Shown here: positions 18,798-32,652 of the stretch, piece after piece | How positions within the stretch are numbered: the stretch's first letter is position 1 | Layout of the letters: every line of letters starts with the position of its first letter | Program-made: the position numbers and the translations under genes | The notes under the pieces: model-generated | What the model saw: only the letters and a program-made list of their open reading frames with translations | Databases searched by the model: none | What the model was told of the DNA's origin: nothing | From: Candidatus Poribacteria bacterium | GTDB lineage: Bacteria > Poribacteria > WGA-4E > WGA-3G | Reading direction: 5' to 3' | DNA: 44,785 nt | NCBI GenBank assembly: GCA_028820845.1 | Contig: JAPPII010000032.1 | Location: 1 to 44,785 of the forward strand

Positions 18798-19841
18798 ATG
18801 GGCTATAGTGATGGTAGGAAACAGCTACGGCGTATCTTGAGCCTAATCGATCGTCTCGAAAAAACAACACGTGGTATTAAGGTACGAGAGTTAGCAAGAC
18901 TCTATGACGTTGATATGACGCGTATCTATGAGGATCTGAAAGTTATCGGAGATTTCTACGAACTGAAAAAGGATAGGGGTTCCTATTGGATTGAGGCAAC
19001 CCGTCCACTGCGCTGGCCCCGTATCGACTCGGAAGAAGCACAGGTTCTGGAATTAGTGATTACGGCTTCGCCGCTTGCAAAAGAACAGCGTTTTGAGGCA
19101 TCTCTCAAAAGGGTTTTGGAAAAACTTGACACGTCCCTTGCTGAACACATCCAATCAAAATTAGAGAAGGATGGTCCCGCGCAACTTGAGCGTGTCAACA
19201 ACAGCGATGTGGTTAAGGAGCCTCTCCATCTCTCTGAGAATGTAGAGCCCTATGGGCGTGATAGTGATAATGACGTTGAGGAACATTTTCGTGTTTTGGA
19301 GGAGGCACTTTACGAACAAAAGGCGGTTCGGGCGGCGTATCGACCGGGTGGCAAAATGGAGTCTGTGAGACATGTCCTTCATCCGTACGCCATCTTTTTC
19401 CGGAGATCGGATTGGTATCTTGAGGCACGTTCCAATTTATCCGAGAACACATCGCTGACTTTCAAAATCCTGCGTTTCCAAAGCGTGACGCTAACAGATG
19501 AAACCTTTGAAATGCCTGCGGACTTTTCATTGTCCGAGGATTTGGCTTCTCGATGGGAACTCTTTAGCGGGGAACCGCTCAGCGTAACGCTCAAGATTGC
19601 CGCGCACAAGGCGTATCTCGTTACGGAAAAGGAACGCCATCGGTCGCAAGAGATTATAGAACGATGTTCAGATGGATCGGTGATTGTCCGTTATGAGGTG
19701 CCGAAAGAGGAATTTACGTTTTGGGTGTTGAGTCTTGGGGATGCAGTAGAAGTACTTGAACCACCCGAATTTCGATCAGAATTTCAGGAGATTGTGCGTA
19801 GGATGCATAATGTCTATTCTGGAAATTTGGAAGGGGTGTAG
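18798..19841 (+). CDS. WYL-domain transcriptional regulator of the CRISPR island
   Basis: 347 residues. N-terminal winged helix-turn-helix (residues 8-70: RRILSLIDRLEKTTRGIKVRELARLYDVDMTRIYEDLKVIGDFYELKKDRGSYWI), then a WYL domain at about 180-245 (AVRAAYRPGGKMESVRHVLHPYAIFFRRSDWYLEARSN) and a C-terminal WCX-like extension to the end. WYL proteins bind nucleic acid ligands and regulate defence loci; in Synechocystis 6803 a WYL protein (Sll7009) is reported as a negative regulator of the type I-D CRISPR. The ribosome binding site AAGGGGG precedes the ATG. A palindrome in the cas promoter (21039-21055) is a plausible operator, with a half-site at 19847-19853. Confidence 0.88.
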   Translation: MGYSDGRKQLRRILSLIDRLEKTTRGIKVRELARLYDVDMTRIYEDLKVIGDFYELKKDRGSYWIEATRPLRWPRIDSEEAQVLELVITASPLAKEQRFEASLKRVLEKLDTSLAEHIQSKLEKDGPAQLERVNNSDVVKEPLHLSENVEPYGRDSDNDVEEHFRVLEEALYEQKAVRAAYRPGGKMESVRHVLHPYAIFFRRSDWYLEARSNLSENTSLTFKILRFQSVTLTDETFEMPADFSLSEDLASRWELFSGEPLSVTLKIAAHKAYLVTEKERHRSQEIIERCSDGSVIVRYEVPKEEFTFWVLSLGDAVEVLEPPEFRSEFQEIVRRMHNVYSGNLEGV

Positions 19842-19859: not shown

Positions 19860-19888
19860 TTGACCAGCCCGATAAAATAGTGTATAGT
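19860..19888 (+). promoter_or_regulatory. Promoter of the CreA-like guide RNA
   Basis: TTGACC (19860-19865), 17-bp spacer, TATAGT (19883-19888). Predicted start of transcription is near 19895, immediately before the first repeat-like element. The heptamer TTTGCGT (19847-19853) just upstream equals one arm of the palindrome in the cas promoter. Confidence 0.75.
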
Positions 19889-19894
19889 AAGTAT

Positions 19895-20018
19895 TGGAGT
19901 GTTGGCGAGAAGTATCTCGATTACGAGATTGAAAAATTGGAATTTTTGTATGCCACATTCCAACATTTTAAGCATTTTAAGATGGCGATAAGAAGTGTCT
20001 CGATTACGAGATAAAAAA
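19895..20018 (+). ncRNA. CreA-like guide RNA: two degenerate CRISPR repeats flanking a 46-nt guide
   Basis: Repeat-like element 1 (aligned 19899-19935) and element 2 (19982-20018) share the 3' part of the array repeat: 19909-19934 and 19990-20012 keep GAAGTATCTCG/GAAGTGTCTCG, the loop ATTA and CGAGAT; element 1 ends ATTGAAAA where the array repeat ends ATTGAAAC. The 5' halves have diverged. The stem is 6 bp (ATCTCG/CGAGAT) in element 1 and 5 bp in element 2, enough for Cas6 recognition. The stretch between them (19936-19981) is a spacer-like guide whose first 11 nt equal 20065-20075. The guide also contains an inverted repeat (19937-19943 with 19957-19963). This is the architecture of CreA RNAs described in archaeal type I-B systems; calling it functional is inference. 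Confidence 0.75.
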
Positions 20019-20020
20019 AT

Positions 20021-20049
20021 TTGCAATACGGATAAGAATGTGCTATCAT
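20021..20049 (+). promoter_or_regulatory. Promoter of the DUF3800 gene
   Basis: TTGCAA (20021-20026), 17-bp spacer, TATCAT (20044-20049); predicted start of transcription near 20056. The -10 region (TATCATTAA, 4 nt, TAGTA) has the same words and spacing as the cas operon promoter at 21066-21083. Confidence 0.7.
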
Positions 20050-20061
20050 TAATTTTTAGTA

Positions 20062-20088
20062 GTTATTGGAATTTTAAGTATGACACAT
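20062..20088 (+). promoter_or_regulatory. PAM plus protospacer-like target of the CreA-like guide
   Basis: GTT (20062-20064) fits the GTN/GTH PAM reported for type I-D. The next 11 nt (20065-20075, ATTGGAATTTT) are identical to guide positions 1-11. The first mismatch is at guide position 12, a position flipped out in type I crRNA duplexes. After a one-base shift, 20078-20088 matches guide positions 13-23 at 10 of 11. The site starts about 9 nt after the predicted start of transcription of the DUF3800 gene, where a bound effector would block the polymerase. Confidence 0.7.
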
Positions 20089-20104: not shown

Positions 20105-20707
20105 ATGTTGAGAAAACTTGGATCAATAGAAGTGAAACGAATCGATCTCTGGGTCGATGAGTCTGGGCAAGACACAAGAGGTAAATTGTTCATTGTCGCG
20201 GGGGCAGTAGTGGCTGCAGAAAATAGAGATGAGGCACGCCAATTCTATGCCTCCCTAGAAAAAATCTCGGGCAAAGGCAAGGTCAAATGGGCAGCTGCAG
20301 ACAAAAATAAGCGTTTAACTTACCTACATACCGCAATCCAAGAAGCCGCTGCTCTTGATGTCACGCTCTTCTACAGCGAATTCCATCAAACAACGGATTA
20401 TGACGGCGCAACAGTTGAAGGTATTGCAAGAATAGTCCATAAACTACACCGTTCCGCTTCTCGCATATACGTCCATGTTGATGGACTCACCGAATCTAAA
20501 TGCAGCGATTACAGGGTTCGCTTGCGAAGGTTAGGGTGTCGTCGTGTTAGAGATGTGAGGGGAATTAGAAAAAGACAAAACGAGCCGCTCATAAGATTAG
20601 CAGATGCTCTAGCCGGGGGTATAGGAGCATCGCGAAAACATCAGAATAGCCAACTTGCTGGCCTTCTTTCACAAGCTGAGAAAGACGGAATTCTTGTTAA
20701 ACTTTAA
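20105..20707 (+). CDS. DUF3800 protein (RNase H-like fold), candidate guarded effector
   Basis: 200 residues. The N terminus IDLWVDESGQDTRGKLFIVAGAVVA is the DUF3800 hallmark (acidic DES near the start, then a hydrophobic strand). Further acidic positions are YSEFHQTTDYDG, VHVDGLTES and a C-terminal LIRLADALAGGIGA, consistent with the RNase H-like fold predicted for this family. DUF3800 proteins are common in defence and phage contexts and are accompanied by structured RNAs; biochemical activity is not established to my knowledge. The start at 20105 lies 1 nt after AAGG, which is poor spacing; TTG 20108 or GTG 20129 are alternatives. Its promoter carries a target for the CreA-like guide, suggesting control by the CRISPR effector. 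An overlapping 26-codon ORF (20080-20160) is considered under rejected items. Confidence 0.8.
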   Translation: MLRKLGSIEVKRIDLWVDESGQDTRGKLFIVAGAVVAAENRDEARQFYASLEKISGKGKVKWAAADKNKRLTYLHTAIQEAAALDVTLFYSEFHQTTDYDGATVEGIARIVHKLHRSASRIYVHVDGLTESKCSDYRVRLRRLGCRRVRDVRGIRKRQNEPLIRLADALAGGIGASRKHQNSQLAGLLSQAEKDGILVKL

Positions 20708-20712
20708 AACAG

Positions 20713-20809
20713 AAAACCACCCTCGTCAGAGAGTGGACAACCTATTCTCCCGGCCGGCCGGGGGACAGCTCAACCTACGTAATAGTTTTCGGCTGTGATT
20801 TTACTTCTG
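20713..20809 (-). ncRNA. Structured RNA, copy 1 (distal)
   Basis: Minus-strand RNA similar to copy 2 (period 108 bp). Stems: ACAGC/GCTGT (20796-20792 with 20769-20765), a palindromic CCGGCCGG hairpin (20748-20764), and CCACTCTC/GAGGGTGG (20736-20729 with 20724-20717) followed by TTTT. Compared with copy 2 the outer pair changes A-U to G-C and the palindrome changes sequence while keeping pairing. In the last stem the single non-Watson-Crick pair is U-G on the minus strand but A-C on the plus strand, which points to the minus strand as the RNA. Its end lies 6 nt from the DUF3800 stop codon, antisense to it. Confidence 0.65.
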
Positions 20810-20820
20810 AGATTGGGCAA

Positions 20821-20930
20821 AAAACCACCTTGGTGAGAAGGTGGGCAACCTATCCTACTGACCGGTCAGCAGGCAGCTCAGCCTACGCAAAGTTTTCGGC
20901 TGCTACTTTACTTCTGCGAATGAACTACAT
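20821..20930 (-). ncRNA. Structured RNA, copy 2 (promoter-proximal)
   Basis: Predicted 5' end near 20930 from the promoter at 20937-20965. Stems on the minus strand: GCAGC/GCTGC (20903-20899 with 20877-20873), the perfect palindrome CTGACCGGTCAG (20858-20869), and CCACCTT/AAGGTGG (20843-20837 with 20830-20824) followed by TTTTTT, a textbook intrinsic terminator. Conserved single-stranded words shared with copy 1 include CAGAAGTAAA, CCGAAAACT and ATAGGTTG. Structured RNAs next to DUF3800 genes are known (the DUF3800 RNA motifs found by comparative genomics); I infer this is one or a relative, but I cannot assign a numbered class. Confidence 0.7.
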
Positions 20931-20936
20931 GATAAT

Positions 20937-20965
20937 AGTATAACCTTTTTTAGAAAAAAAGTCAA
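20937..20965 (-). promoter_or_regulatory. Minus-strand promoter for the tandem structured RNAs
   Basis: On the minus strand: TTGACT (20965-20960), 17-bp spacer, TATACT (20942-20937). One of the best promoters in the window; it faces away from the cas operon and toward the DUF3800 gene. Confidence 0.8.
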
Positions 20966-21038
20966 GGAATTCTTATAATTTCTAATTTTTTTTGAAAAAA
21001 ATGCTGAATTTTCAAATTTTTAAGTCGATTTTTTTACT

Positions 21039-21083
21039 TTTGCGTAAAACGCAAATTTTATATGGTATCATTAAAGCATAGTA
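21039..21083 (+). promoter_or_regulatory. cas operon promoter with palindromic operator
   Basis: TTTGCGT-AAA-ACGCAAA (21039-21055) is a perfect 7-bp inverted repeat. A -10 box TATCAT lies at 21066-21071 within TATCATTAA-N4-TAGTA (21066-21083), the same pattern as the DUF3800 promoter. The expected -35 (21043-21048) falls inside the palindrome and is poor (CGTAAA), so the palindrome is a good candidate for regulator binding, for instance by the WYL protein. Confidence 0.55.
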
Positions 21084-21111
21084 ATAGACTCTAAGTTTGT
21101 AGGAAAATAGA

Positions 21112-23178
21112 ATGAACCCTATTAAAGTTTTACCTGTCTACTCTAAACTCTCTCAATCTGAACCAAGCGCGGACATACCAACAGGACTTTCTTTGCGAGA
21201 ACACCAAGTTAAAACTTTTGATGCAATTCGAGATCCTGACGTTGATGTTGTCTTCAACACGGCAGTGACTGGTGATGGAAAGAGTCTTGCAGCGTATCTT
21301 CCCGCATTAGTTGACAATCACCGCGTTTTGGCAATGTATCCAACGAATGAGTTAATCCGTGACCAGCGTGATCAGATAGAAACTTATTGTGGTTTGTTCA
21401 GTAGCAATATTACACCAGAGTGCATGTACAGTGAGCACCTATATGATCTCCGCGCGGAATTGGAGTTAGGCAGCCAAGCGGGCGCGATAGAGTTTTTGGC
21501 AGAAGGACATGAAGTTTTACTCACAAACCCGGATATTTTCAACCTGATTGCCAACTTCAAATACATGAGCGAGCACCAAAACCCTGATCGGCTACTGCAG
21601 ACTATCTTGAATTGTTACGATGTATTTCTGTTTGACGAATTTCATATCTATGACGTTTCACAGGTGATTTCTGTGTTAACTGCGATGTTGTACATCATTG
21701 AACAAACACGAGGGACGCGCGACCGGAAGAAATTTGTCTTTCTTTCTGCTACGCCAAACCCTCTGCTGTTAGAGTGTTTGAAGCAATCCGGGCTTCGGTA
21801 TAAAATTATTGAAGGGGACTATCGTTTTGAAAATGCCGACGAACAGCGTTGGAGTCAGATTTGCAAACCTTTTACCCTTCACTTTCATGGAATTGGGCGG
21901 CAGACCGAGGCATGGATTCAGAGCCATTATGAGGAAATAGCGAACTGGTTTTCAGAAAATCCTGGGTCGCGCGGGGCAATCATTGTTGATTCAGTCGCAT
22001 CGGCGAAACGTATTGTAGCATTTCTCACGGAACGTCACGATGCAAAAGAGTTTCCAAGTGTTGGGGAAATCACAGGCTTAACCGGAAAATTGGACAGAAA
22101 ATCAGCACGGGAAAAAGATCTACTTGTCGGAACATCAACGGTTGATGTCGGCGTTGATTTCAAGATCAACTACCTCATTTTTGAAGCACTTAACGCGGGC
22201 TCATGGGTTCAACGTCTTGGGCGTCTTGGGAGGCACAAAGGGTATAAACAAGATGATGGTACGAAGATTAACTTTACCAGTTTTGTGGCACACTCCTTGC
22301 TCCCGAAGTATGTAGCCGAACGGATAGAAGCAGCTGATATTCCTGAAGAGGTCAACAAAATTTCGTTGATAGATTCCATGCGAAACGAAGAAAAAGATAA
22401 ACGTATTTTCTCACCAACCAACGATTTTCGGAACTATCAACGCTCATGGGGTTGGCTACATCCTGCCCACGTCATTAATATATTGGGACACCCGCGGTTG
22501 CGTGATAATTACGCGTCGCTACGCGAACAACTAACAGAAACCTACAACAACGTCTTCAAGCTGAACATCGGTGAGCGAGTAAAGTGGTATTATAAAATCA
22601 CGCAAGAGCGACCTGAAATCATTGAAAACGTTGTAACTCACTTTCGCGGTGAAACGCCCTTCACGTGTGGTATCCTTGATCAAAATGATGGTGAAATTAA
22701 AACCTATGATTTGCTATGGATTCTCAGGAATGCTGAGACTGAATGGATAAATAAGCACGATTTCATGGAAATCGCTCAAGCACGAGATATTCAACCTCAT
22801 CGGTATAAGTATGTTGATGTCTATCTACGGTTGCTAAAGTATCGTCCTGAACCTGAACGACTGCGGCTACGCTCCAATAAGGCAATTTTCAGCAGATTTA
22901 GTGAAGACGCATATTGCAAAGTAAAAGTGCGTCAAGGCTTTCAGATTGATGGCAATTTCCAAGGCATTAACAAAATAAACCGTTTACTCAAGCGTAAAAA
23001 ACTTTTGTGTCTGATCCGTAAAGAGTCAGTAGATAAATTGAGAGCCTATTTACGCCTACCACCACTTTTTGGCATTTCTCGCTTAATTGACTCCGAAGGG
23101 AATCCACTGAGTGTTATCTTTTTTAAAGACGCGCTCTTGTTACAATCGTTGCCCTACATTTGGGCAGGGGAGGAATAA
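21112..23178 (+). CDS. cas3: Type I-D CRISPR helicase Cas3' (no HD domain)
   Basis: 688-residue superfamily 2 helicase that unwinds target DNA after Cascade binding. Motif I NTAVTGDGKSLA (GDGKS, residues 54-58), motif II FLFDEFHIYD (DEFH in place of DEAH) at about 175, motif III FLSATP at about 213, motif VI WVQRLGRLGRHKG at about 365. The HD nuclease that is fused to Cas3 in other type I systems is absent; in type I-D it resides in Cas10d, which is the next gene. The ribosome binding site is TAGGA, 7 nt before the ATG. The stop lies 2 nt before the cas10d start, so translation is likely coupled. First gene of the cas operon. Confidence 0.92.
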   Translation: MNPIKVLPVYSKLSQSEPSADIPTGLSLREHQVKTFDAIRDPDVDVVFNTAVTGDGKSLAAYLPALVDNHRVLAMYPTNELIRDQRDQIETYCGLFSSNITPECMYSEHLYDLRAELELGSQAGAIEFLAEGHEVLLTNPDIFNLIANFKYMSEHQNPDRLLQTILNCYDVFLFDEFHIYDVSQVISVLTAMLYIIEQTRGTRDRKKFVFLSATPNPLLLECLKQSGLRYKIIEGDYRFENADEQRWSQICKPFTLHFHGIGRQTEAWIQSHYEEIANWFSENPGSRGAIIVDSVASAKRIVAFLTERHDAKEFPSVGEITGLTGKLDRKSAREKDLLVGTSTVDVGVDFKINYLIFEALNAGSWVQRLGRLGRHKGYKQDDGTKINFTSFVAHSLLPKYVAERIEAADIPEEVNKISLIDSMRNEEKDKRIFSPTNDFRNYQRSWGWLHPAHVINILGHPRLRDNYASLREQLTETYNNVFKLNIGERVKWYYKITQERPEIIENVVTHFRGETPFTCGILDQNDGEIKTYDLLWILRNAETEWINKHDFMEIAQARDIQPHRYKYVDVYLRLLKYRPEPERLRLRSNKAIFSRFSEDAYCKVKVRQGFQIDGNFQGINKINRLLKRKKLLCLIRKESVDKLRAYLRLPPLFGISRLIDSEGNPLSVIFFKDALLLQSLPYIWAGEE

Positions 23179-23180
23179 TA

Positions 23181-26100
23181 ATGGCTGAGCAACTTGAAAT
23201 GTTTGATCAGTTAGATAACAACCAAGATAACAGCGAAGTGACACCTACACCTACGCAACTTGATCAGTTGGTTGATTTAACGGATGACGGAATTGAAGTC
23301 GAAGAGGAATCCGCTTATATTGCGCTGCTGAAAGGATCAGTTCCCGCTAATGATCATGTTTTGCAAGATTACGTTGAGATCGTAGGACCCCGAATGCAGA
23401 GAGAATACACGCTGCGATCGGCAAAAGGGAGTTCCGTTGAAAAATACGCGCTCAATGACGACCAAAGTATGCTGGCGCATATCCTGAACGGAGTTTTTCC
23501 AACCTTGCAGATTATGAGGGAATCTGAAGCGGATTTGAGCGATATTGAGAAACATCTCTATCTCATTGCTTATACACTTCATGACTTGGACAAGTTGGTA
23601 AATGTCCGAAAATTAAGTGTTGCTAATGCTAACGAGAAACGCGAATTTTATGGCTATCTGGATGAATGGGTAGAGCGGTTACACTTTGATAATTTTTGTC
23701 CAGAATATAATACTTACCGTGAGGACATTGGCTATTTAATCCTGAATACGCAAGTAAAATATGGTGCAGATCTCAACCCACAAAATTTTGATCGCCAACT
23801 TTCAGGGAACCGCTATGAGTTTTTGAAAAGGATGTGCCGGTTTTCCGATCTCATCGCTTATTTTATGAAAAATCCCGCAAGTTTTTTAGAGAGACGGGAC
23901 ATTTCGGAATCGCTTACTCATTTAAGTCGTGGAAAACTTGTGTTTGCGTATCACAAAGTTTCCGAGAATCGAGGGATGCTGACTAATGTCATTAACAATG
24001 CTGTGCTTGCGGAGATGCGAGACAATTTTGGGTGGAAACCGTTCTTATTTTTTCCTACTGGTGTGACATATCTGCGATCTCGGAATTTGGATGACAAAGC
24101 ACTCCCAACAGGAGATGATATTGCTGAGATTGTTGTAGAGAAGCTCAAGACATACTGTACCTCCCGGCTTCGACAGAATCTAAACGGATTTACACGCGGC
24201 GGGAAAGGTTTCAAATATGCAGATTATTATGATGCCTTCTTTCAACCGGACGAAATGTTGGAATTAATCCAAAAAGGCTGCTTTAAGATTCTCCGACAGG
24301 ATAAAGCACCTTCGGCAGGGAAACGATTGGCAAAGCTCCAGCAGCTTCAAACGGATGGTAAAATTCCTGAGGATATTTCACTGGATTTTGAAGACGATCT
24401 CCGCGTAGATCAGTTGGCGGAGTATCTCGTTGAGGTGGAGAAGCTGCTTGGCAAATTCGCGTCGCGGGAAGCTGTGGCCAACGAAATTCTTTCTTATTTA
24501 GGAGTGAATAACTTGCAAGAAGCCTTTGCATCTATCCCAAGTCAGGGGGGGGTGCCGTTGCCCTGGTATTTCGTCGCTGGTAAGTACCTCTTGCAAAATC
24601 GCGGCAAAGATGAAAATGACATGAGGGCTTTGTTTGAGGAAATAGCTAAGCATGTTACTAAGGTGTTTGCTGAAACTATCCAGAATCAGCCACAATCGGA
24701 TAGCTTTACTACGCTGCGGGACTATGTTAAACAAACGGTTGATATTAACGGGCATCAAGGCATCCACCAAGACTTCCAGACTGAGCTCACTCGGTACACC
24801 AATACAAAAAAAGTTGGGAGGGGTTCAGATAAAGGATGTTCTCTCTGTTCATCGGTTTTTCAAACACAGGAATCTAGCGAAACAGACGTGATTTTTGCAC
24901 CGCAAGTTTTTAGTCATAAAAGTCCGATTAATTCTGGTCGAGTTAGGAGAGGTATTTGCCAACTGTGCAAGTTGGAAATGATGCTTCGTCAAATTCTGAT
25001 TCGATCACGATGGAATCTTATTGGCGCGGGGTATGAGAGTGTCAAAATTAAGTGGCTCTATTTTTATCCAAGTTATTTCTTTACGTCAGAAACATCTAAG
25101 GTTATCGGTAAGGCTTATCAAAACCTGAAATCCTTGAATTTTTTTGATGTGCGGCGAAAACTTCACAAGGGTAGTGCTGCAACTGATTTAGTAGAACTTG
25201 ATGAATTTATCATTGACACTGAAATCCCTGAAACTGAGAAGGAAAATTTGTTCAAAATGGATTTTAGTGAAAATGATTTGGCAACATTCTATTTCTGCGG
25301 TATTCCAACCCTTGGCACGCGACCAACCGATACAGAATCTTGGGCAATGCCCACGTTCCTGGGACTTCTCTCAACACTCGCTTTTAATGCTAAAGTTGTT
25401 GTGACGGAGTCGCAAGTGCCACTTTACCACAGTGCGGAGGATTTTAAAGAGACGGTGGTTCTCAATGCTCCACATTCTTTTGTTACACACGTTTTGAAAA
25501 AAGATAGACTCCGTATTGATGAGATAGAGACGGGTTTAGAAAAGCTCGCAGCTACCTACGACATTAACATTGATGCTTTTCGCGACGGAGCTAAACCGCA
25601 GTGGCAACATCTCAATGGTGTCGCTGGGAATATAGAGAGTGATCCACTCTATGTGTTCCACTATCTTGATGTACTTCGCCGAAAAAATAAGTGGGATAGT
25701 TTTCCGAAACCCAGAGACGGAGATATATTCATTCCGGAACGCTATTTGCAATTCTATGAAACCCTTGGAGGTGACAAAATGAGTCTAATTGAAGGCATTG
25801 CCGAGAGATGCTTCAATTTCTATGGACCCGATTCTTTTAACGCCAACAGCATATTGAAAGTAATCGCTTTAGTGGAGGATGTCATCATTAACAGTGATCC
25901 TACAATTGACCCAATTGACCTAAAATGGGAAGCACGCGGTGAGGTTCACAATCTAATGCAACGCGTTAGAAGTAGTCGGGCACAAGGCTTCGCCCGTTTG
26001 CTCCAACGAGAGGAGTCTGCGGCTATTGAAGCATTGATCAATTACTTCTATGACCAAGTATTTATGGATGATTACAAAGGGCAGCGGGCAATTCTGCGCG

Positions 26101-26204
26101 CCCGCCGGAACCGTCTTAATGCTGGTATCAACGCTTGGTATCAGGCGAACTGGCAACAATTCCGAAAAGAAAAAAATGAGGAGGCAACTGATGTCAATAA
26201 TTGA
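23181..26204 (+). CDS. cas10d: Type I-D large subunit Cas10d with N-terminal HD nuclease
   Basis: 1007 residues. The HD domain is seen as YTLHDLDKLVN (H134, D135), with an upstream His at SMLAH (H100). Two CxxC pairs, CSLC at about residue 553 and CQLC at about 593, form the zinc-binding treble-clef typical of Cas10 proteins. No GGDD cyclase motif is seen in the palm-like part, as expected for Cas10d. It cuts DNA and forms the large subunit of the I-D effector with Csc1 and Csc2. The start at 23181 (MAEQLEMF) is chosen over an in-frame ATG at 23160 because GGGGAGGA sits 7 nt upstream. It overlaps csc2 by 14 bp. Confidence 0.9.
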   Translation: MAEQLEMFDQLDNNQDNSEVTPTPTQLDQLVDLTDDGIEVEEESAYIALLKGSVPANDHVLQDYVEIVGPRMQREYTLRSAKGSSVEKYALNDDQSMLAHILNGVFPTLQIMRESEADLSDIEKHLYLIAYTLHDLDKLVNVRKLSVANANEKREFYGYLDEWVERLHFDNFCPEYNTYREDIGYLILNTQVKYGADLNPQNFDRQLSGNRYEFLKRMCRFSDLIAYFMKNPASFLERRDISESLTHLSRGKLVFAYHKVSENRGMLTNVINNAVLAEMRDNFGWKPFLFFPTGVTYLRSRNLDDKALPTGDDIAEIVVEKLKTYCTSRLRQNLNGFTRGGKGFKYADYYDAFFQPDEMLELIQKGCFKILRQDKAPSAGKRLAKLQQLQTDGKIPEDISLDFEDDLRVDQLAEYLVEVEKLLGKFASREAVANEILSYLGVNNLQEAFASIPSQGGVPLPWYFVAGKYLLQNRGKDENDMRALFEEIAKHVTKVFAETIQNQPQSDSFTTLRDYVKQTVDINGHQGIHQDFQTELTRYTNTKKVGRGSDKGCSLCSSVFQTQESSETDVIFAPQVFSHKSPINSGRVRRGICQLCKLEMMLRQILIRSRWNLIGAGYESVKIKWLYFYPSYFFTSETSKVIGKAYQNLKSLNFFDVRRKLHKGSAATDLVELDEFIIDTEIPETEKENLFKMDFSENDLATFYFCGIPTLGTRPTDTESWAMPTFLGLLSTLAFNAKVVVTESQVPLYHSAEDFKETVVLNAPHSFVTHVLKKDRLRIDEIETGLEKLAATYDINIDAFRDGAKPQWQHLNGVAGNIESDPLYVFHYLDVLRRKNKWDSFPKPRDGDIFIPERYLQFYETLGGDKMSLIEGIAERCFNFYGPDSFNANSILKVIALVEDVIINSDPTIDPIDLKWEARGEVHNLMQRVRSSRAQGFARLLQREESAAIEALINYFYDQVFMDDYKGQRAILRARRNRLNAGINAWYQANWQQFRKEKNEEATDVNN

Positions 26205-27198
26205 AATTCCCCAAACGCTTGTTCCTGAAACCTATTTCTTGGATACGATTCCCAAGGCACCCGAGGGGCGATACGCACACATTATCTTGGTTCGGGAGAC
26301 CGAATCCTATCCAGTCTTTCAAACCGATGGAACTCTAAACATCGCCAACGTTAAAAGCGGTTTGCAACAAACAGAACTATTGATCCGACTCGCAATGTTT
26401 AAACGTAAGCAAACCTCTCCAGAGCGTTTGACTGGACGTGAACTCCTGCGACGGACCGGTATCACACAGAATCAGAATGATAAAGCAGACAGGTACTGCG
26501 ACTACAATGAGCACTTCTGTCAGAGCTGTCCAGATTGTGTCTACTATGGGTTTGCTATCGGGAACGCTGGTGCTGAAAAGTCAAAGGTTTATGTGGATAC
26601 TGCTTACTCTATCAGTGGTTATGATGAATCGCATCAACAGTTCTCATTTAACGCCCTATTTGAGAAGGGAAACATGAGCCAAAAGGGCACAGTCAGATCC
26701 AGTTTTGGGGAACAGGATCACATTGTCCCGCAGGTCTACTTTCCTTCTGTAATTACTATTAAGGACGTGACATCCAATAGTTTCGCGTATGTGCTTAACA
26801 ATCTGCTGCGGACAAAACGATACGGTGCACAGACGACGCGAACAGGTAGGCTTGCCAATCATGTTGTTGGTATTGTATTTGCTGATGGAGAAATCTTTTC
26901 CAATCTTAAGCTGACTCAGGCAATCTATGACAGGCTTTCCGATTCTGAACAGTTGGAAAATACCCCGTTGAATCAAGCCGAAGTTATCAAAAATACCGAA
27001 ATGGCGATACCACAACTTCTCACTGAAGACGGAGTCATCTTTCATCATGTCCACGGCAGTGATCTTGGTGAATTAATGAATTGTGTGACTGCTGTAACTA
27101 CTGATGCTGACAAACTTAGGACATTCCTTGAAGAAACAGACGCGGAGACTACTGAGTATTCAGAACGTGTTATCCAAAGTGAGAAAAAGAAGAAGTAA
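26191..27198 (+). CDS. csc2: Type I-D backbone subunit Csc2 (Cas7 family)
   Basis: 335 residues. The N terminus (MSIIEIPQTLVPETYFLDTIPKAPEGRYAHIILVRETESYPVFQTDG) and LTGRELLRRTGITQNQ are characteristic of Csc2. The cysteine cluster YCDYNEHFCQSCPDC (about residues 108-122) is the zinc-binding insert of this subunit. Csc2 polymerises along the crRNA as the Cas7-type backbone. The start at 26191 has GAGGAGG 6 nt upstream; an earlier in-frame ATG (26050) would overlap cas10d by 150 bp and is unlikely. The C terminus ends in a Lys run (SEKKKK). Confidence 0.92.
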   Translation: MSIIEIPQTLVPETYFLDTIPKAPEGRYAHIILVRETESYPVFQTDGTLNIANVKSGLQQTELLIRLAMFKRKQTSPERLTGRELLRRTGITQNQNDKADRYCDYNEHFCQSCPDCVYYGFAIGNAGAEKSKVYVDTAYSISGYDESHQQFSFNALFEKGNMSQKGTVRSSFGEQDHIVPQVYFPSVITIKDVTSNSFAYVLNNLLRTKRYGAQTTRTGRLANHVVGIVFADGEIFSNLKLTQAIYDRLSDSEQLENTPLNQAEVIKNTEMAIPQLLTEDGVIFHHVHGSDLGELMNCVTAVTTDADKLRTFLEETDAETTEYSERVIQSEKKKK

Positions 27199-27208
27199 GG
27201 AGTTACTG

Positions 27209-27865
27209 ATGCACGTCGCAAAGTGCCAACTTATTTTGCATGACTCGCTCTATTATGCAACTCGTGAAATGGGCCGGCTCTATGAAACAGAAAAAGTCAT
27301 TCACAATTGGGCACTAACTTATGCACTTGGATTCATCCAAAGACCTTACTATTGTGCCGATAGTGTTCCTACGTATCAAGATGACCTCCAACCGATTAAC
27401 AAGGCAGGCGTTTACGTTACGCCTGCCAAACCTATTCGTTGTGATTATGTAATTAACACTTTTAAGTTCGCGGATAACCGACATCGTGCTTTCTCAACCC
27501 CGAATCGCACCAACAAACCCTCCTATGGAAAGGCGAAGGAACTCGCGCCTGAGAGCAAGTTTGAGTTTTTCATCATCGGTGAATTAGAAAAAAAACTCCC
27601 TAAGTGGATACGATTAGGTTTGTGGATGAGCAAGGCGCGGATAGAGATCAAAGCTGTGGAATCTCATTTAACACCGAAGCGCGGCACGTTTACCTGTCGA
27701 CATCTTTTGAATCCAATCGACCTCCCTATTTTGCCGGAGTTGTACGATCTCATTTCAATGCCACCAGTGAGTTTGCTGCAAAACGCACGATTTAGCGGCG
27801 AATATGTGGAATTTGGTGATGTTTGTTTGCCAGCATCCATGGCTTACTTTGCTGGTGCATCATAA
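27209..27865 (+). CDS. csc1: Type I-D subunit Csc1 (Cas5 family)
   Basis: 218 residues. MHVAKCQLILHDSLYYATREMGRLYETEKVIHNWALTYALGF is typical of Csc1, the Cas5-like protein that holds the 5' handle of the crRNA. The start at 27209 has AGGAG 6 nt upstream and follows csc2 by 10 bp; a longer reading from 27104 would overlap csc2 by 95 bp. cas6 follows after 12 bp. Confidence 0.9.
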   Translation: MHVAKCQLILHDSLYYATREMGRLYETEKVIHNWALTYALGFIQRPYYCADSVPTYQDDLQPINKAGVYVTPAKPIRCDYVINTFKFADNRHRAFSTPNRTNKPSYGKAKELAPESKFEFFIIGELEKKLPKWIRLGLWMSKARIEIKAVESHLTPKRGTFTCRHLLNPIDLPILPELYDLISMPPVSLLQNARFSGEYVEFGDVCLPASMAYFAGAS

Positions 27866-27877
27866 GGAGACCCACCC

Positions 27878-28708
27878 ATGCCAATCAGCACACTCATATC
27901 GCTCATACCCGAAACCGACGTAACACTCCGACCCACCATGGGACACCATGCCCACGCAGCCTTCCTCTCTATCCTCAAAAAGAGCAACCCGGAAGTCGCA
28001 GCGGCGGTTCATGCCCACGCAGCACAAAAACCCTTTACCGTCTCGCCACTCATCGCGAAGATGGAGAAGCGCGGGAATCTCTGTCACATCAAAGCAGGCA
28101 CAGCGTGCAAACTCCGATTCACCTTCCTTGATGACGAATTATTTCAACACTTCGGAAAAGCATTCTTGACGCTCGCGATGCCACCTATCCGTTTGGGAGA
28201 GGCAGCGTTTCAGGTCAGACAGATGGTCTCGCACGCTACCGAGGAACGCAGTTGGAGCAAGAACGAAACCTACGCCGAACTCATCCAATCCGCAACAACG
28301 GATACCCAGATGTGCTTCCGATTCTATTCACCGACTGCCTTCCGTAGAATGACACCGCGCGGACGGAAAACCCGTAGCGACGCGTATCTTGATCTCGTGC
28401 GATGCTATCAGAGCTGGATTAACAAGTGGAATGCCTTCGCTCCCATAAAACTTGACAAAGCCAAAATCCTCGAATTCGTTGCGGAGTATGGGCAGGTGAT
28501 GACCGTGAGATCGGCATCGAAGCGACTCAACTTCGGGAAACACGCTGAGACCGGATGGGTGGGGACCTGCTCTTGTGTTTTCTATCCCGAAGATGCACTT
28601 GACACCGAGCTGCTCCGAACTGTTAACTGCTTAGCAGCCTTTGCATTCTATTGTGGCACGGGCTATAAGACAACAATGGGGATGGGACAGACGCGAAGGG
28701 TTGATTAA
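27878..28708 (+). CDS. cas6: CRISPR RNA endoribonuclease Cas6
   Basis: 276 residues. Processes the pre-crRNA at the base of the repeat hairpin. N-terminal ferredoxin-like fold with GHHAHAAFL (H23, H24, H26 are candidates for the catalytic His) and a C-terminal Gly-rich loop, CGTGYKTTMGMGQTRR, diagnostic of the RAMP superfamily Cas6. From this gene onward the sequence looks clearly more GC-rich than cas3'-cas10d-csc2-csc1, and closer to the genomic background of the window. If Cas6 recognises the degenerate repeats upstream, it would also mature the CreA-like RNA. Confidence 0.9.
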   Translation: MPISTLISLIPETDVTLRPTMGHHAHAAFLSILKKSNPEVAAAVHAHAAQKPFTVSPLIAKMEKRGNLCHIKAGTACKLRFTFLDDELFQHFGKAFLTLAMPPIRLGEAAFQVRQMVSHATEERSWSKNETYAELIQSATTDTQMCFRFYSPTAFRRMTPRGRKTRSDAYLDLVRCYQSWINKWNAFAPIKLDKAKILEFVAEYGQVMTVRSASKRLNFGKHAETGWVGTCSCVFYPEDALDTELLRTVNCLAAFAFYCGTGYKTTMGMGQTRRVD

Positions 28709-28720
28709 AGGAGATTTCAG

Positions 28721-30358
28721 ATGTCAGAAACCTATATTCCACTTTCGCAGATAAATACTTATGTTTTTTGTCCGCGACGGTTCTACTACGAATCTATTGA
28801 AGGACATCAGGTTGTCAACGATCACGTTGAAGAGGGCAAAATCAAGCATGAACATGTCCACACAGCCGTGAAAGATCGGAAAAAAGGAGATAAGACTGTA
28901 TCCCGACGGCAGTACCTCGCTTCCGATACACTTGGTGTATCAGGTTACACCGATCTGGTAGAGGAGAAAGACGGTATTCCGTATCCAGTCGAATTCAAAA
29001 AAGCAGGCACGGGCAATTGGCTTAACGATCAGGTGCAACTCTGTTTGCAGGGACTGGTGTTAGAAGAAAAGACCGGTGTTTCAATCCCACACGGCTATAT
29101 CTTCTATATCGGTTCTAAGCGGCGACGGAAGGTTCCGTTTGACAAGGAACTCCGCGAAACAACACTGCGGTACGTCGCGGAAGCACGGGGATTGCTTGAT
29201 TCCAGAGAGATTCCGAAGCCTGTCCACGATAACCGGTGCAACGGGTGCAGCGTTCGCCCGATCTGTCTACCCGATGAGGTCGCTTATCTTCACGAATTGG
29301 ATGAACGACCGAAACGGATAAAGCCCGCACTCGGCATTGATAATGTGCTGTATGTTGACGAACAAGGCTGTGCTATCAAAAAGACAGGGGAACGTCTGCT
29401 CGTCGTCAAAGAGGATGATGTGTTGCGCGATATTCCGCTCATTCATCTTGGACAGGTGGTTATCTCTGGCAACGTCACCCTCACCACGCCTGCGATGCAA
29501 ACGCTTTTGCACGAAGGTATTCCTGTTGTGTTTCTCTCTGCATACGGACGGTACCACGGGGCTTTGACACCGCAGGTGTCCCGAAATTCACTTTTGCGGC
29601 ATGCACAGCATAAAGTCGCGGATAATCCAGACGCATGCCTTGCGCTTTCAAAGGCATTTGTGCAGGGAAAAGTGGCGAACATGCGGACGATGCTCCAACG
29701 CCGAAAATGGCAGGCTCCGGACAGTACAGACGCTGCATTGGAACCTTTACTTGCTAATATTAAAGCGATGAAAGCAATGGAAAAACGCATTGACACCACA
29801 ACTGAACTTCCAGAATTACTGGGCGTAGAGGGAAACGCCTCTGCTATATACTTCGGGTCTTTTGGTTTTATGCTCAAGTCGGAGGTGGGGTTTGATTTTC
29901 AACGCCGAAGCCGTCGGCCACCCGCAGACGCGACAAACGCCCTGCTGAGTTTCGCCTATTCGTTACTGACAGCGGATCTCATGGCTGCGATTCAGACAGT
30001 TGGGCTTGATCCATACATCGGTTTCTTCCACCAAATTAAGTATGGGAAACCCTGCCTTGCCCTTGATTTGATGGAGGAATTTCGATCGGTTATTGCCGAC
30101 TCCGTTGTGATTACGTTAATCAACAATCGGCGTATTAAGCCGGAGGATTTCACGCAATCCCACGGTGGATGGTATCTCAAGGAACGTTCTCGAAAGGTAT
30201 TCTACGCGGCGTACGAGACACGGAAAAATGAGACTATCACACACCCTGTGTTTAAGTATAAACTCACATTTCGGCGTGCGATGGAATTACAGGTGCGTTT
30301 GCTGGCGAAGTATCTAACGGGAGAGATTGATCAATACGCACCACTGACAATTCGCTAA
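28721..30358 (+). CDS. cas4-cas1: Cas4-Cas1 fusion (spacer acquisition nuclease/integrase)
   Basis: 545 residues, two domains in one frame. Cas4 (1-190): RecB-like nuclease with acidic motif D78 and E91-F-K93 (YTDLVEEKDGIPYPVEFKK) and the four Fe-S Cys C17, C173, C176 and C182 (CNGCSVRPIC). Cas1 (from about 205 to 545): GVEGNASAIYF with E370, then FFHQIKYGKPCLALDLMEEFR with H437 and D449/E452, the three integrase metal ligands. Cas4 trims prespacers with PAM specificity and hands them to Cas1-Cas2; fusion enforces that coupling. Cas4-Cas1 fusions are best known in type I-G (former I-U); in typical I-D loci they are separate genes. GGAG precedes the ATG by 7 nt. Confidence 0.93.
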   Translation: MSETYIPLSQINTYVFCPRRFYYESIEGHQVVNDHVEEGKIKHEHVHTAVKDRKKGDKTVSRRQYLASDTLGVSGYTDLVEEKDGIPYPVEFKKAGTGNWLNDQVQLCLQGLVLEEKTGVSIPHGYIFYIGSKRRRKVPFDKELRETTLRYVAEARGLLDSREIPKPVHDNRCNGCSVRPICLPDEVAYLHELDERPKRIKPALGIDNVLYVDEQGCAIKKTGERLLVVKEDDVLRDIPLIHLGQVVISGNVTLTTPAMQTLLHEGIPVVFLSAYGRYHGALTPQVSRNSLLRHAQHKVADNPDACLALSKAFVQGKVANMRTMLQRRKWQAPDSTDAALEPLLANIKAMKAMEKRIDTTTELPELLGVEGNASAIYFGSFGFMLKSEVGFDFQRRSRRPPADATNALLSFAYSLLTADLMAAIQTVGLDPYIGFFHQIKYGKPCLALDLMEEFRSVIADSVVITLINNRRIKPEDFTQSHGGWYLKERSRKVFYAAYETRKNETITHPVFKYKLTFRRAMELQVRLLAKYLTGEIDQYAPLTIR

Positions 30359-30488
30359 CTCCAAAACCCACGAATGAGCAGAAAAAAGAATGGAAGCATG
30401 GAGGGATGGAGGTGCCTTCGTCCTTCTGTCCTTCCAATCTTCCAATCCATACAGGCTTCAGCGGAAAAAATTGAATGAGGAGTCACTG

Positions 30489-30761
30489 ATGCATTACACA
30501 GTCGCTTATGACATCGCCGATGACAAGCGTCGGAACAGCGTTGCTAAAATTCTCAAAGACTTTGGGACTCGCATCCAGTATAGTGTTTTTGAATGTAATA
30601 CGGATCGGCGCGCACTCTTACGCCTGCAAAGCCGATTGGAGAAGGTCATTGATTTTAAAGAGGACTCAATCACCTTTTATCATCTCTGCGCGGCGTGTGA
30701 AAAACAGATTGACCGGATAGGTTTAAAAAAAGGACTTGACAAGCAGTCTTATATTGTGTAA
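30489..30761 (+). CDS. cas2: Spacer acquisition protein Cas2
   Basis: 90 residues; MHYTVAYDIADDKRRNSVAKILKDFGTRIQYSVFECN is the ferredoxin-like Cas2 N terminus with Asp8 in YDIADD. Homodimer that bridges two Cas1 dimers during spacer integration. GGAG precedes the start at 30489. The 130-bp gap from cas4-cas1 contains an imperfect purine/pyrimidine palindrome around GGATGGAGG...CCTTCCAATC, probably a dispersed repeat inserted in the operon. Confidence 0.95.
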   Translation: MHYTVAYDIADDKRRNSVAKILKDFGTRIQYSVFECNTDRRALLRLQSRLEKVIDFKEDSITFYHLCAACEKQIDRIGLKKGLDKQSYIV

Positions 30762-30970: not shown

Positions 30971-32652
30971 CTTGAAATCAGAAGAAACTCGATTACGAGA
31001 TTGAAACTCGAGAAACGCAATCAGTACCCGATACCGCGCCGGTGCTTGAAATCAGAAGAAACTCGATTACGAGATTGAAACCGTCTCGAACATTCCGCGT
31101 TCGGCGTTGGAAAACGTCACTTGAAATCAGAAGAAACTCGATTACGAGATTGAAACCTTTGTGTCTGGATGGACAAAGTGAAGTTGTCGCTTCACTTGAA
31201 ATCAGAAGAAACTCGATTACGAGATTGAAACCGACATGCTACCCCTCGAACATACCCGCAATATTCATCTTGAAATCAGAAGAAACTCGATTACGAGATT
31301 GAAACGATCGGTATCTCGGTCGACGAGGCGCATCGCATGAAGCCTTGAAATCAGAAGAAACTCGATTACGAGATTGAAACTTGACGGACAAGGTCTTTGT
31401 CGAGTCTGGGCTGGCAGCGGTCTTGAAATCAGAAGAAACTCGATTACGAGATTGAAACACTTTGTTTTTCATGTGGCACGCAAAAACGTACTGAACTTGA
31501 AATCAGAAGAAACTCGATTACGAGATTGAAACTTTGATAAGATGCTCGCCTCGCTCTCGGATGGGCTGGCTTGAAATCAGAAGAAACTCGATTACGAGAT
31601 TGAAACACGAATTACGCCTTCAGTAAGTTCGTCAAGGTTCTGGCTTGAAATCAGAAGAAACTCGATTACGAGATTGAAACATGGAGGTAAAAGAAACTAT
31701 CGGCATCAGCTTCCTTCCTTGAAATCAGAAGAAACTCGATTACGAGATTGAAACGCATGAAACCGACGCGGTCATCATTTGTAAAGGTTTCTTGAAATCA
31801 GAAGAAACTCGATTACGAGATTGAAACCGTTGGTAAAGGCATTACTGACGCATTTTAATGTCGCCTTGAAATCAGAAGAAACTCGATTACGAGATTGAAA
31901 CAGTGATACTGGGGACACCCGAACGCTCGGGGGAAGCCTTGAAATCAGAAGAAACTCGATTACGAGATTGAAACCTGCCGGTGTGTTCGGGAGGCTACTC
32001 AAGTCGGGCATCTCTTGAAATCAGAAGAAACTCGATTACGAGATTGAAACCTGTGGGCATGGCGGGGGCTTGGGGTGCTTGTACGCCTCTTGAAATCAGA
32101 AGAAACTCGATTACGAGATTGAAACCGAGACTCCGGCATCGGTATGATTTACGCTCCGCTCGCCTTGAAATCAGAAGAAACTCGATTACGAGATTGAAAC
32201 TTGACGATGATGAGATGATATTAAAAGCAAAAGCGCACCCGCAGAGCTTGAAATCAGAAGAAACTCGATTACGAGATTGAAACGTACATTGACTGTACCT
32301 CCAGTGCCACAATGTTAACTTGAAATCAGAAGAAACTCGATTACGAGATTGAAACGTTCTTTGTTGGCATCCTGTACCACGCGTTTTTGCCTTGAAATCA
32401 GAAGAAACTCGATTACGAGATTGAAACCTGCGCTTTCGACCCTTTTGAGAACGGGTTGCCCCACACTTGAAATCAGAAGAAACTCGATTACGAGATTGAA
32501 ACGGCACCGATTCCCTATACACACCAATTCGCGCATATTGACTTGAAATCAGAAGAAACTCGATTACGAGATTGAAACTCCGCTCGGTCTATCGAGGCGG
32601 GTGGCACGGTAATTGCTTGAAATCAGAAGTATCTCGATTACGAGATTGAAAC
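30971..32652 (+). CRISPR. Type I-D CRISPR array, 23 repeats and 22 spacers
   Basis: Repeat of 37 nt beginning CTTGAAATCAGAAGAAACTC and ending GATTACGAGATTGAAAC, with the hairpin CTCG-ATTA-CGAG. Repeat starts: 30971, 31045, 31120, 31195, 31269, 31344, 31422, 31496, 31570, 31644, 31718, 31791, 31865, 31938, 32014, 32089, 32164, 32247, 32319, 32391, 32466, 32542, 32616. Spacers are 35-41 nt except one of 46 nt (32201-32246). Repeats 1-22 look identical; repeat 23 has TATCTCG in place of AAACTCG. Decay at the distal end sets the orientation, with the leader at the cas2 side. Confidence 0.98.

Follow-up and report, generated by a model that had tools for sequence, protein, structure and literature searches.

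The window, that is, the whole stretch of 44,785 nucleotides of Candidatus Poribacteria DNA that was analyzed, carries a type I-D operon (21112-30761, plus strand) coding for a Cas3-type helicase, a Cas10d-like protein, Csc2, a Csc1-like protein, Cas6, a Cas4-Cas1 fusion and Cas2. The helicase, Csc2, Cas6, Cas4-Cas1 and Cas2 were named by Pfam; the Cas10d-like and Csc1-like proteins have no Pfam match and were named by operon order and homologues. CRISPR arrays with the cognate repeat are found at 30980-32578 on the same strand. On the other side, at 18798-19841 (plus strand), there is a gene for a regulator with WYL and WCX domains (Pfam), which is retained in most relatives of the locus. A palindrome, TTTGCGTAAAACGCAAA (21039-21055), located just 5' of the -10 box of the cas operon and kept in most loci, is a possible operator, maybe for the WYL regulator.

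The region between the regulator gene and the operon contains a mini-array of the creA type, a gene encoding a DUF3800 protein and two tandem structured RNAs. The mini-array (plus strand) has its own promoter, TTGACC-17-TATAGT (19860-19888), and consists of a single spacer (19936-19990, ATTGGAATTTTTGTATGCC...) between two degenerate repeats (19908-19935, cf. the array repeat from 30980 on, and 19991-20018). It is followed on the same strand by the DUF3800 promoter (20020-20049, 9 of 12 consensus matches) and the DUF3800 gene (20105-20707, 200 amino acids, assigned by Pfam, structure model and alignment). The two RNAs, designated RNA-A, are encoded on the minus strand: copy 1, which is cas-proximal and the first transcribed, at 20818-20916, and copy 2, which is DUF3800-proximal, at 20710-20809, whose 3' end and the stop codon of DUF3800 are about 2 nt apart. 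Their common promoter, TTGACT-17-TATACT, lies at 20937-20965.

Predicted CRISPR control of the DUF3800 gene

The seed of the spacer matches a target located directly past the -10 box of the DUF3800 promoter (20062-20075, plus strand), which comprises a GTT PAM (20062-20064) and an 11-nt protospacer seed, ATTGGAATTTT. The same arrangement, a spacer between two degenerate repeats matching the region just past the -10 box next to a PAM, was found in 10 of 10 loci, the PAMs being GTT, GTC or GCT. Since position 6 is flipped out in type I complexes, it was left unscored. In nine of the ten loci the match extends over all 10 scored positions of the seed, and only 0-1 of 5000 shuffled spacers were as good there; the first 12 positions of these nine show mismatches at 6 and 12. 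In the remaining locus (L036), 8 of 10 seed positions match and 14 of 5000 shuffled spacers were as good. Variants at positions 3, 4 and 7 in individual loci occur in both spacer and target, and the mini-array is missing where DUF3800 is missing. Since PAM and seed match the promoter in every one of these loci, Cascade very probably represses DUF3800 in the manner of CreTA/CrePA, a conclusion drawn from sequence, and the earlier description of the gene as CRISPR-controlled is borne out to that extent. The frequent decay of the DUF3800 gene hints at a product that is toxic when Cascade is lost.

In the known CreTA/CrePA loci (PMC9458426, PMC12737573), which likewise adjoin type I operons, two degenerate repeats also surround one spacer with a partial match to the promoter of the gene that follows, and a PAM is present. 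The product under control there is an RNA toxin in the case of CreT and typically a KilA-N domain protein in the case of CreP (PMC9458426, PMC12737573), whereas the gene apparently controlled here encodes a DUF3800 protein and has a second, structured RNA attached to it. The locus would thus represent CreTA/CrePA-like control extended to a new type of gene. A second I-D locus of genome G048 (L307, G048:C29, about 8354-8580 of the reversed stretch; L165) combines the same kind of mini-array and target with a different subfamily of the protein, DUF3800-C, and a further small RNA, RNA-C, and therefore protein and RNA seem to have been swapped together under a constant guide.

An AlphaFold2 model of the DUF3800 protein (46 sequences) reached a mean pLDDT of 94.6, and its best structural matches were RNase HII/H2 enzymes (1eke: Z 12.7 over 155 residues, 2.9 A). 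The residues D18, E19, D126 and D167, conserved in the DUF3800 alignment, probably correspond to the acidic residues of the RNase HII fold, and with this predicted fold and these residues the protein is a putative nuclease. A PDB sequence search with DUF3800 revealed no significant relatives, PADLOC gave no DUF3800 match, and none of the papers found reports toxicity of DUF3800. An RNase H fold has been described independently for DUF3800 near Cas12a2, in a paper that also cites the link of DUF3800 to noncoding RNAs (PMC10910872). The DUF3800 accessory proteins of Cas12a2 and type VI-F loci (PMC10910872, PMC12669027) share with the present one the RNase H fold and the vicinity of CRISPR, but those loci belong to class 2, whereas here the system is class 1 and the DUF3800 gene is the predicted target of repression and has a partner RNA.

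Structure and distribution of the tandem RNAs

The two RNA-A copies are direct repeats with a spacing of 108 nt. Single-sequence folding of both was unremarkable (z -1.5 and -1.25), so that the structure is not provable from these two copies alone. In an alignment of 55 RNA-A homologues, the 28 base pairs make up five helices, and standard pairing is seen in 97.7% of their cells; shuffled alignments gave a mean of 89.8%, and none of 500 was as high. Compensatory double changes are present in 17 of the 28 pairs. The alignment contains 71 G-U cells and 15 A-C cells, which marks the minus strand as the transcribed one. The earlier note, made from the sequence of the window, had proposed two tandem minus-strand RNAs with covarying stems and a promoter, and all these points are confirmed, including the conserved homologues with compensatory changes that had been set beforehand as a test. 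Its list of stems was incomplete: an outer CAGAA/UUCUG stem, a GCAGCC/GGUUGC stem and a small hairpin, which itself covaries (A-U/G-C and G-C/A-U), had been missed. The terminator it had described, CCACCTT..AAGGTGG with six T, does exist but belongs to the cas-proximal copy, and in fact both copies end in a terminator-like hairpin on the minus strand (20844-20825 followed by TTTTTT in copy 1, 20736-20717 followed by TTTTCT in copy 2).

Both ends of the RNA are conserved, the 3' end being the terminator, and a variable segment resembling a guide is lacking outside the P3 hairpin. The P3 hairpins (20746-20765 and 20854-20873 in the window, for example) are near-perfect palindromes with CCGG loops, and consequently two RNA-A copies could pair together. 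A protein-coding reading of the plus strand was unsupported, as the differences between the copies include single-base indels and compensatory pairs. A mobile-element reading was also rejected, with no further copies in the genome and a locus type that is always the same.

The 55 RNA-A copies are distributed in 26 of the fetched Candidatus Poribacteria loci, many of them from metagenome-assembled genomes, and these locus counts depend on the genomes sampled; in a BLAST search of 85 genomes of the phylum, significant copies were confined to the same family. RNA-A is nearly always present as tandem pairs with a spacing of 106-109 or 131-136 nt, the exceptions being triples in two loci and two pairs in one locus. 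Within the 108-spacing class, first copies are 85% alike among themselves and 77% like their own neighbors, which points to an old duplication with both copies kept distinct. The minus-strand promoter is retained in almost all of the 26 loci. One locus (L045, 9210-12063) has the RNA pair and DUF3800 without creA, upstream of an hsdM-like type I restriction-modification gene instead of cas genes. An open reading frame of about 250 amino acids is found at L049 (10165-10917) and L048 (1597-2322); in L049 it replaces DUF3800, and PADLOC gave no name for it.

Association of the RNAs with DUF3800

Among 59 related genomes, the RNA adjoins 16 of 16 detected copies of the window's DUF3800 subfamily, fragments counted, and lies beyond the end of the gene, whether whole or broken, at a distance of a few to about 120 nt. 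A second subfamily, DUF3800-B, about 36% identical to that of the window, is accompanied by an RNA of its own, RNA-B, which is distinct from RNA-A yet homologous to it and is located on the opposite strand, about 10 nt beyond the stop codon, in 9 of 9 loci.

A protein-only scan of bacterial genomes was used to pick further DUF3800 loci from Chloroflexi, Patescibacteria and other groups. A covariance model, R2, was built from 29 of these foreign RNAs and zero Poribacteria sequences, and in this alignment 12 of 14 pairs show compensatory changes. R2 matches were found beside the gene in about 40 of 41 foreign loci, a figure that counts model matches in fetched loci; the tail-to-tail placement was directly read in about 35, and wherever the flank was read the RNA was on the opposite strand just past the DUF3800 stop codon. 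The top two R2 matches in the window are the two RNA-A copies (27.3 bits, E 1e-5; 20.1 bits, E 0.0014), and the model also recovers other RNA-A and RNA-B copies as well as loci excluded from it. In the reverse search, all seven foreign RNAs that were tried were recovered by model R1, built only from Poribacteria RNAs, with E values down to 1.8e-11. The 29 foreign genomes, which had been chosen for containing DUF3800, have about one RNA each; most extra copies also adjoin DUF3800, and for one (L299) there was no DUF3800 within the fetched stretch. The pairing of the RNA family with DUF3800 is thus strongly supported by these comparisons, in agreement with the association originally suggested for the window. 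A search of viral contigs gave no DUF3800 relatives. A convergent putative RNA is also present in the 3' flank of a 254-aa DUF3800 (L163) from another family of the order; it has a sigma-70-like promoter, and its end resembles a terminator.

The RNA family is related to the DUF3800 families of Rfam without reaching any of them. An Rfam scan of the whole window revealed no DUF3800 family and a single, spurious CrcZ match, and no Rfam DUF3800 family attains its cut-off on these RNAs. RF02968 (DUF3800-IX) gave no match up to E 10 in the window region 20600-21110; relatives score 13-24 bits against it, its gathering cut-off being 36.8 bits, and one of them, the L237 RNA, aligns over its full length at 13.4 bits, the others attaining 16-24 bits. 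Conversely, strong DUF3800-IX matches in the same genomes were missed by R2. According to the L237 alignment and that of the window copies to R2, both families have a closing stem, CCGAA, a hairpin with CCGUAUGG, a second hairpin and UAGG, and two inspected strong RF02968 matches are also tail-to-tail with DUF3800. The window RNAs differ in being tandem and in having an outer stem and a longer P3. This shared architecture, at scores far under the cut-off, indicates a sister family of DUF3800-IX and not a member of it, so that membership in an Rfam DUF3800 family, which the earlier note had had in mind, was not sustained. At L210, a true DUF3800-II RNA (853-922, 57.5 bits) lies on the other side of a DUF3800 gene with a convergent RNA, two DUF3800-type RNAs thus flanking one gene.

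The association is one-sided. Of the 26 RNA-A loci, 10 have an intact DUF3800 gene, 6 a broken one and 10 none at all, absence being called on contiguous sequence from the upstream gene to the RNA, and RNA-A cells are paired in 98.8%, 97.6% and 96.5% of cases, respectively. DUF3800-B is missing from 21 of 30 examined RNA-B loci; the orphan RNA-B is 88.8% identical across these 21 loci, its flanks 31-44%, and it is under purifying selection. Most genomes with orphan RNA-B have no DUF3800 match whatsoever. Many of the orphans occupy one syntenic place after a gene that we take to be glgB, where DUF3800-B is still there in two relatives; at L131, L110, L111, L122 and other loci the orphan is 3' of this gene, sometimes behind a toxin-antitoxin-like gene. 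DUF3800 without the RNA was found in at most one locus. From the 16 of 26 RNA-A loci lacking an intact DUF3800 and from the conserved orphan RNA-B, it follows that the protein is tied to the RNA, which can outlast it. The earlier expectation that homologues would be placed according to DUF3800 genes held in one direction, DUF3800 going with the RNA, and failed in the other, with RNA persisting where the gene is broken or absent and the sister RNA present in genomes where no DUF3800 was detected. The conservation of this sister RNA suggests an additional or trans-acting role.

Possible functions of the RNA-protein pair

CRISPR-controlled genes of this type have so far been toxins, which makes a Cascade-repressed DUF3800 a toxin candidate and the RNA its likely antidote or cofactor. 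The option raised in the earlier note, that the RNA is a substrate or inhibitor of the DUF3800 protein, stays a conjecture, and its interpretation is upheld in part. We give about even chances to the proposal that the tandem RNAs are the dedicated partner of DUF3800 and that both form a toxin-antitoxin-like module guarding the CRISPR-Cas locus. In normal cells, the I-D Cascade with the CreA-like guide would block transcription of the gene for the RNase HII-like nuclease just past its -10 box, as the target site suggests. The RNA, driven by its own promoter, ends against the DUF3800 stop codon and is predicted to fold into a closed multi-stem structure; it would most likely bind and neutralize leaked DUF3800, like a type III antitoxin RNA. 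If Cascade disappeared or was blocked, an anti-CRISPR being one possible cause, DUF3800 could exceed the RNA and attack the cell or the invader. As in ToxIN and other type III toxin-antitoxin systems, a small tandem structured RNA adjoins a putative ribonuclease gene. Here, however, the RNA runs convergently to the protein gene from a promoter of its own instead of lying upstream of the toxin gene and being cotranscribed with it, the protein has a predicted RNase HII fold, and neutralization is putative.

Alternatively, the RNA might be an obligatory cofactor, DUF3800 and RNA forming a ribonucleoprotein nuclease active only when assembled, which we consider rather unlikely. Other RNase H-fold nucleases do use RNA (the RuvC domain of TnpB/IscB, Argonaute), and the near-invariable pairing, the structure kept across phyla and the almost complete absence of DUF3800 on its own would be expected of a cofactor. 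On the other hand, the RNAs remain intact where DUF3800 is gone, orphan RNA-B is under purifying selection, and a guide-like variable segment is lacking outside P3; OMEGA-type guide RNAs differ in this respect, neither end of the present RNA having a variable guide segment. The asymmetry between protein and RNA fits a toxin that needs its antidote better than a cofactor.

The same asymmetry is also compatible with an RNA that has a job of its own in the cell, DUF3800 being an accessory that would process, degrade or exploit it, an explanation to which we attach a low probability. It would account for the 21 orphan RNA-B loci, many after glgB, with their contrast to the flanks, and for the RNA-A loci devoid of intact DUF3800. 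It would not predict that outside Poribacteria the RNA is almost only beside DUF3800, about once per genome in genomes chosen for DUF3800, nor that the type of RNA switches together with the type of DUF3800. The orphans bear on the guard module as well: for an antitoxin to be kept under strong selection without its toxin, something more has to be assumed, such as protection from incoming DUF3800 genes or a separate function, and this conservation is the main weakness of the guard-module explanation.

It is very unlikely that the RNA acts as a tail-to-tail antisense or terminator limiting DUF3800 expression, in a type I-like manner and without binding the protein. In most loci the RNA is convergent and follows the stop codon immediately, and read-through from DUF3800 would yield a transcript complementary to the RNA pair; for such a function complementarity suffices, yet the fold is kept by compensatory changes, even without DUF3800. 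Regulation of the cas operon by the RNA pair is suggested by its position, with DUF3800 on one side and the divergent operon on the other, and by its presence in most cas loci whose upstream region is complete. This is nevertheless the most improbable reading, as the same RNA precedes operons of types I-D and I-B and also a type I restriction system, and in other phyla adjoins DUF3800 irrespective of cas genes.

The guard module in its fullest version would be doubly locked: an RNase HII-like toxin silenced transcriptionally by Cascade and CreA and post-translationally by the tandem antitoxin RNA, with the protein-RNA cassette exchanged under a constant creA and the orphan RNAs serving as antidotes against incoming DUF3800 genes. 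This version is put forward tentatively, with less than even confidence.

To our knowledge, no function has been established for the DUF3800 RNAs since their discovery by comparative genomics. The locus described here suggests one, and the small, ready-made RNA-protein pairs from several phyla make it directly testable. If the proposal is true, an RNase HII-like protein would join the CRISPR-controlled toxins, so far reported as RNA toxins and KilA-N proteins.
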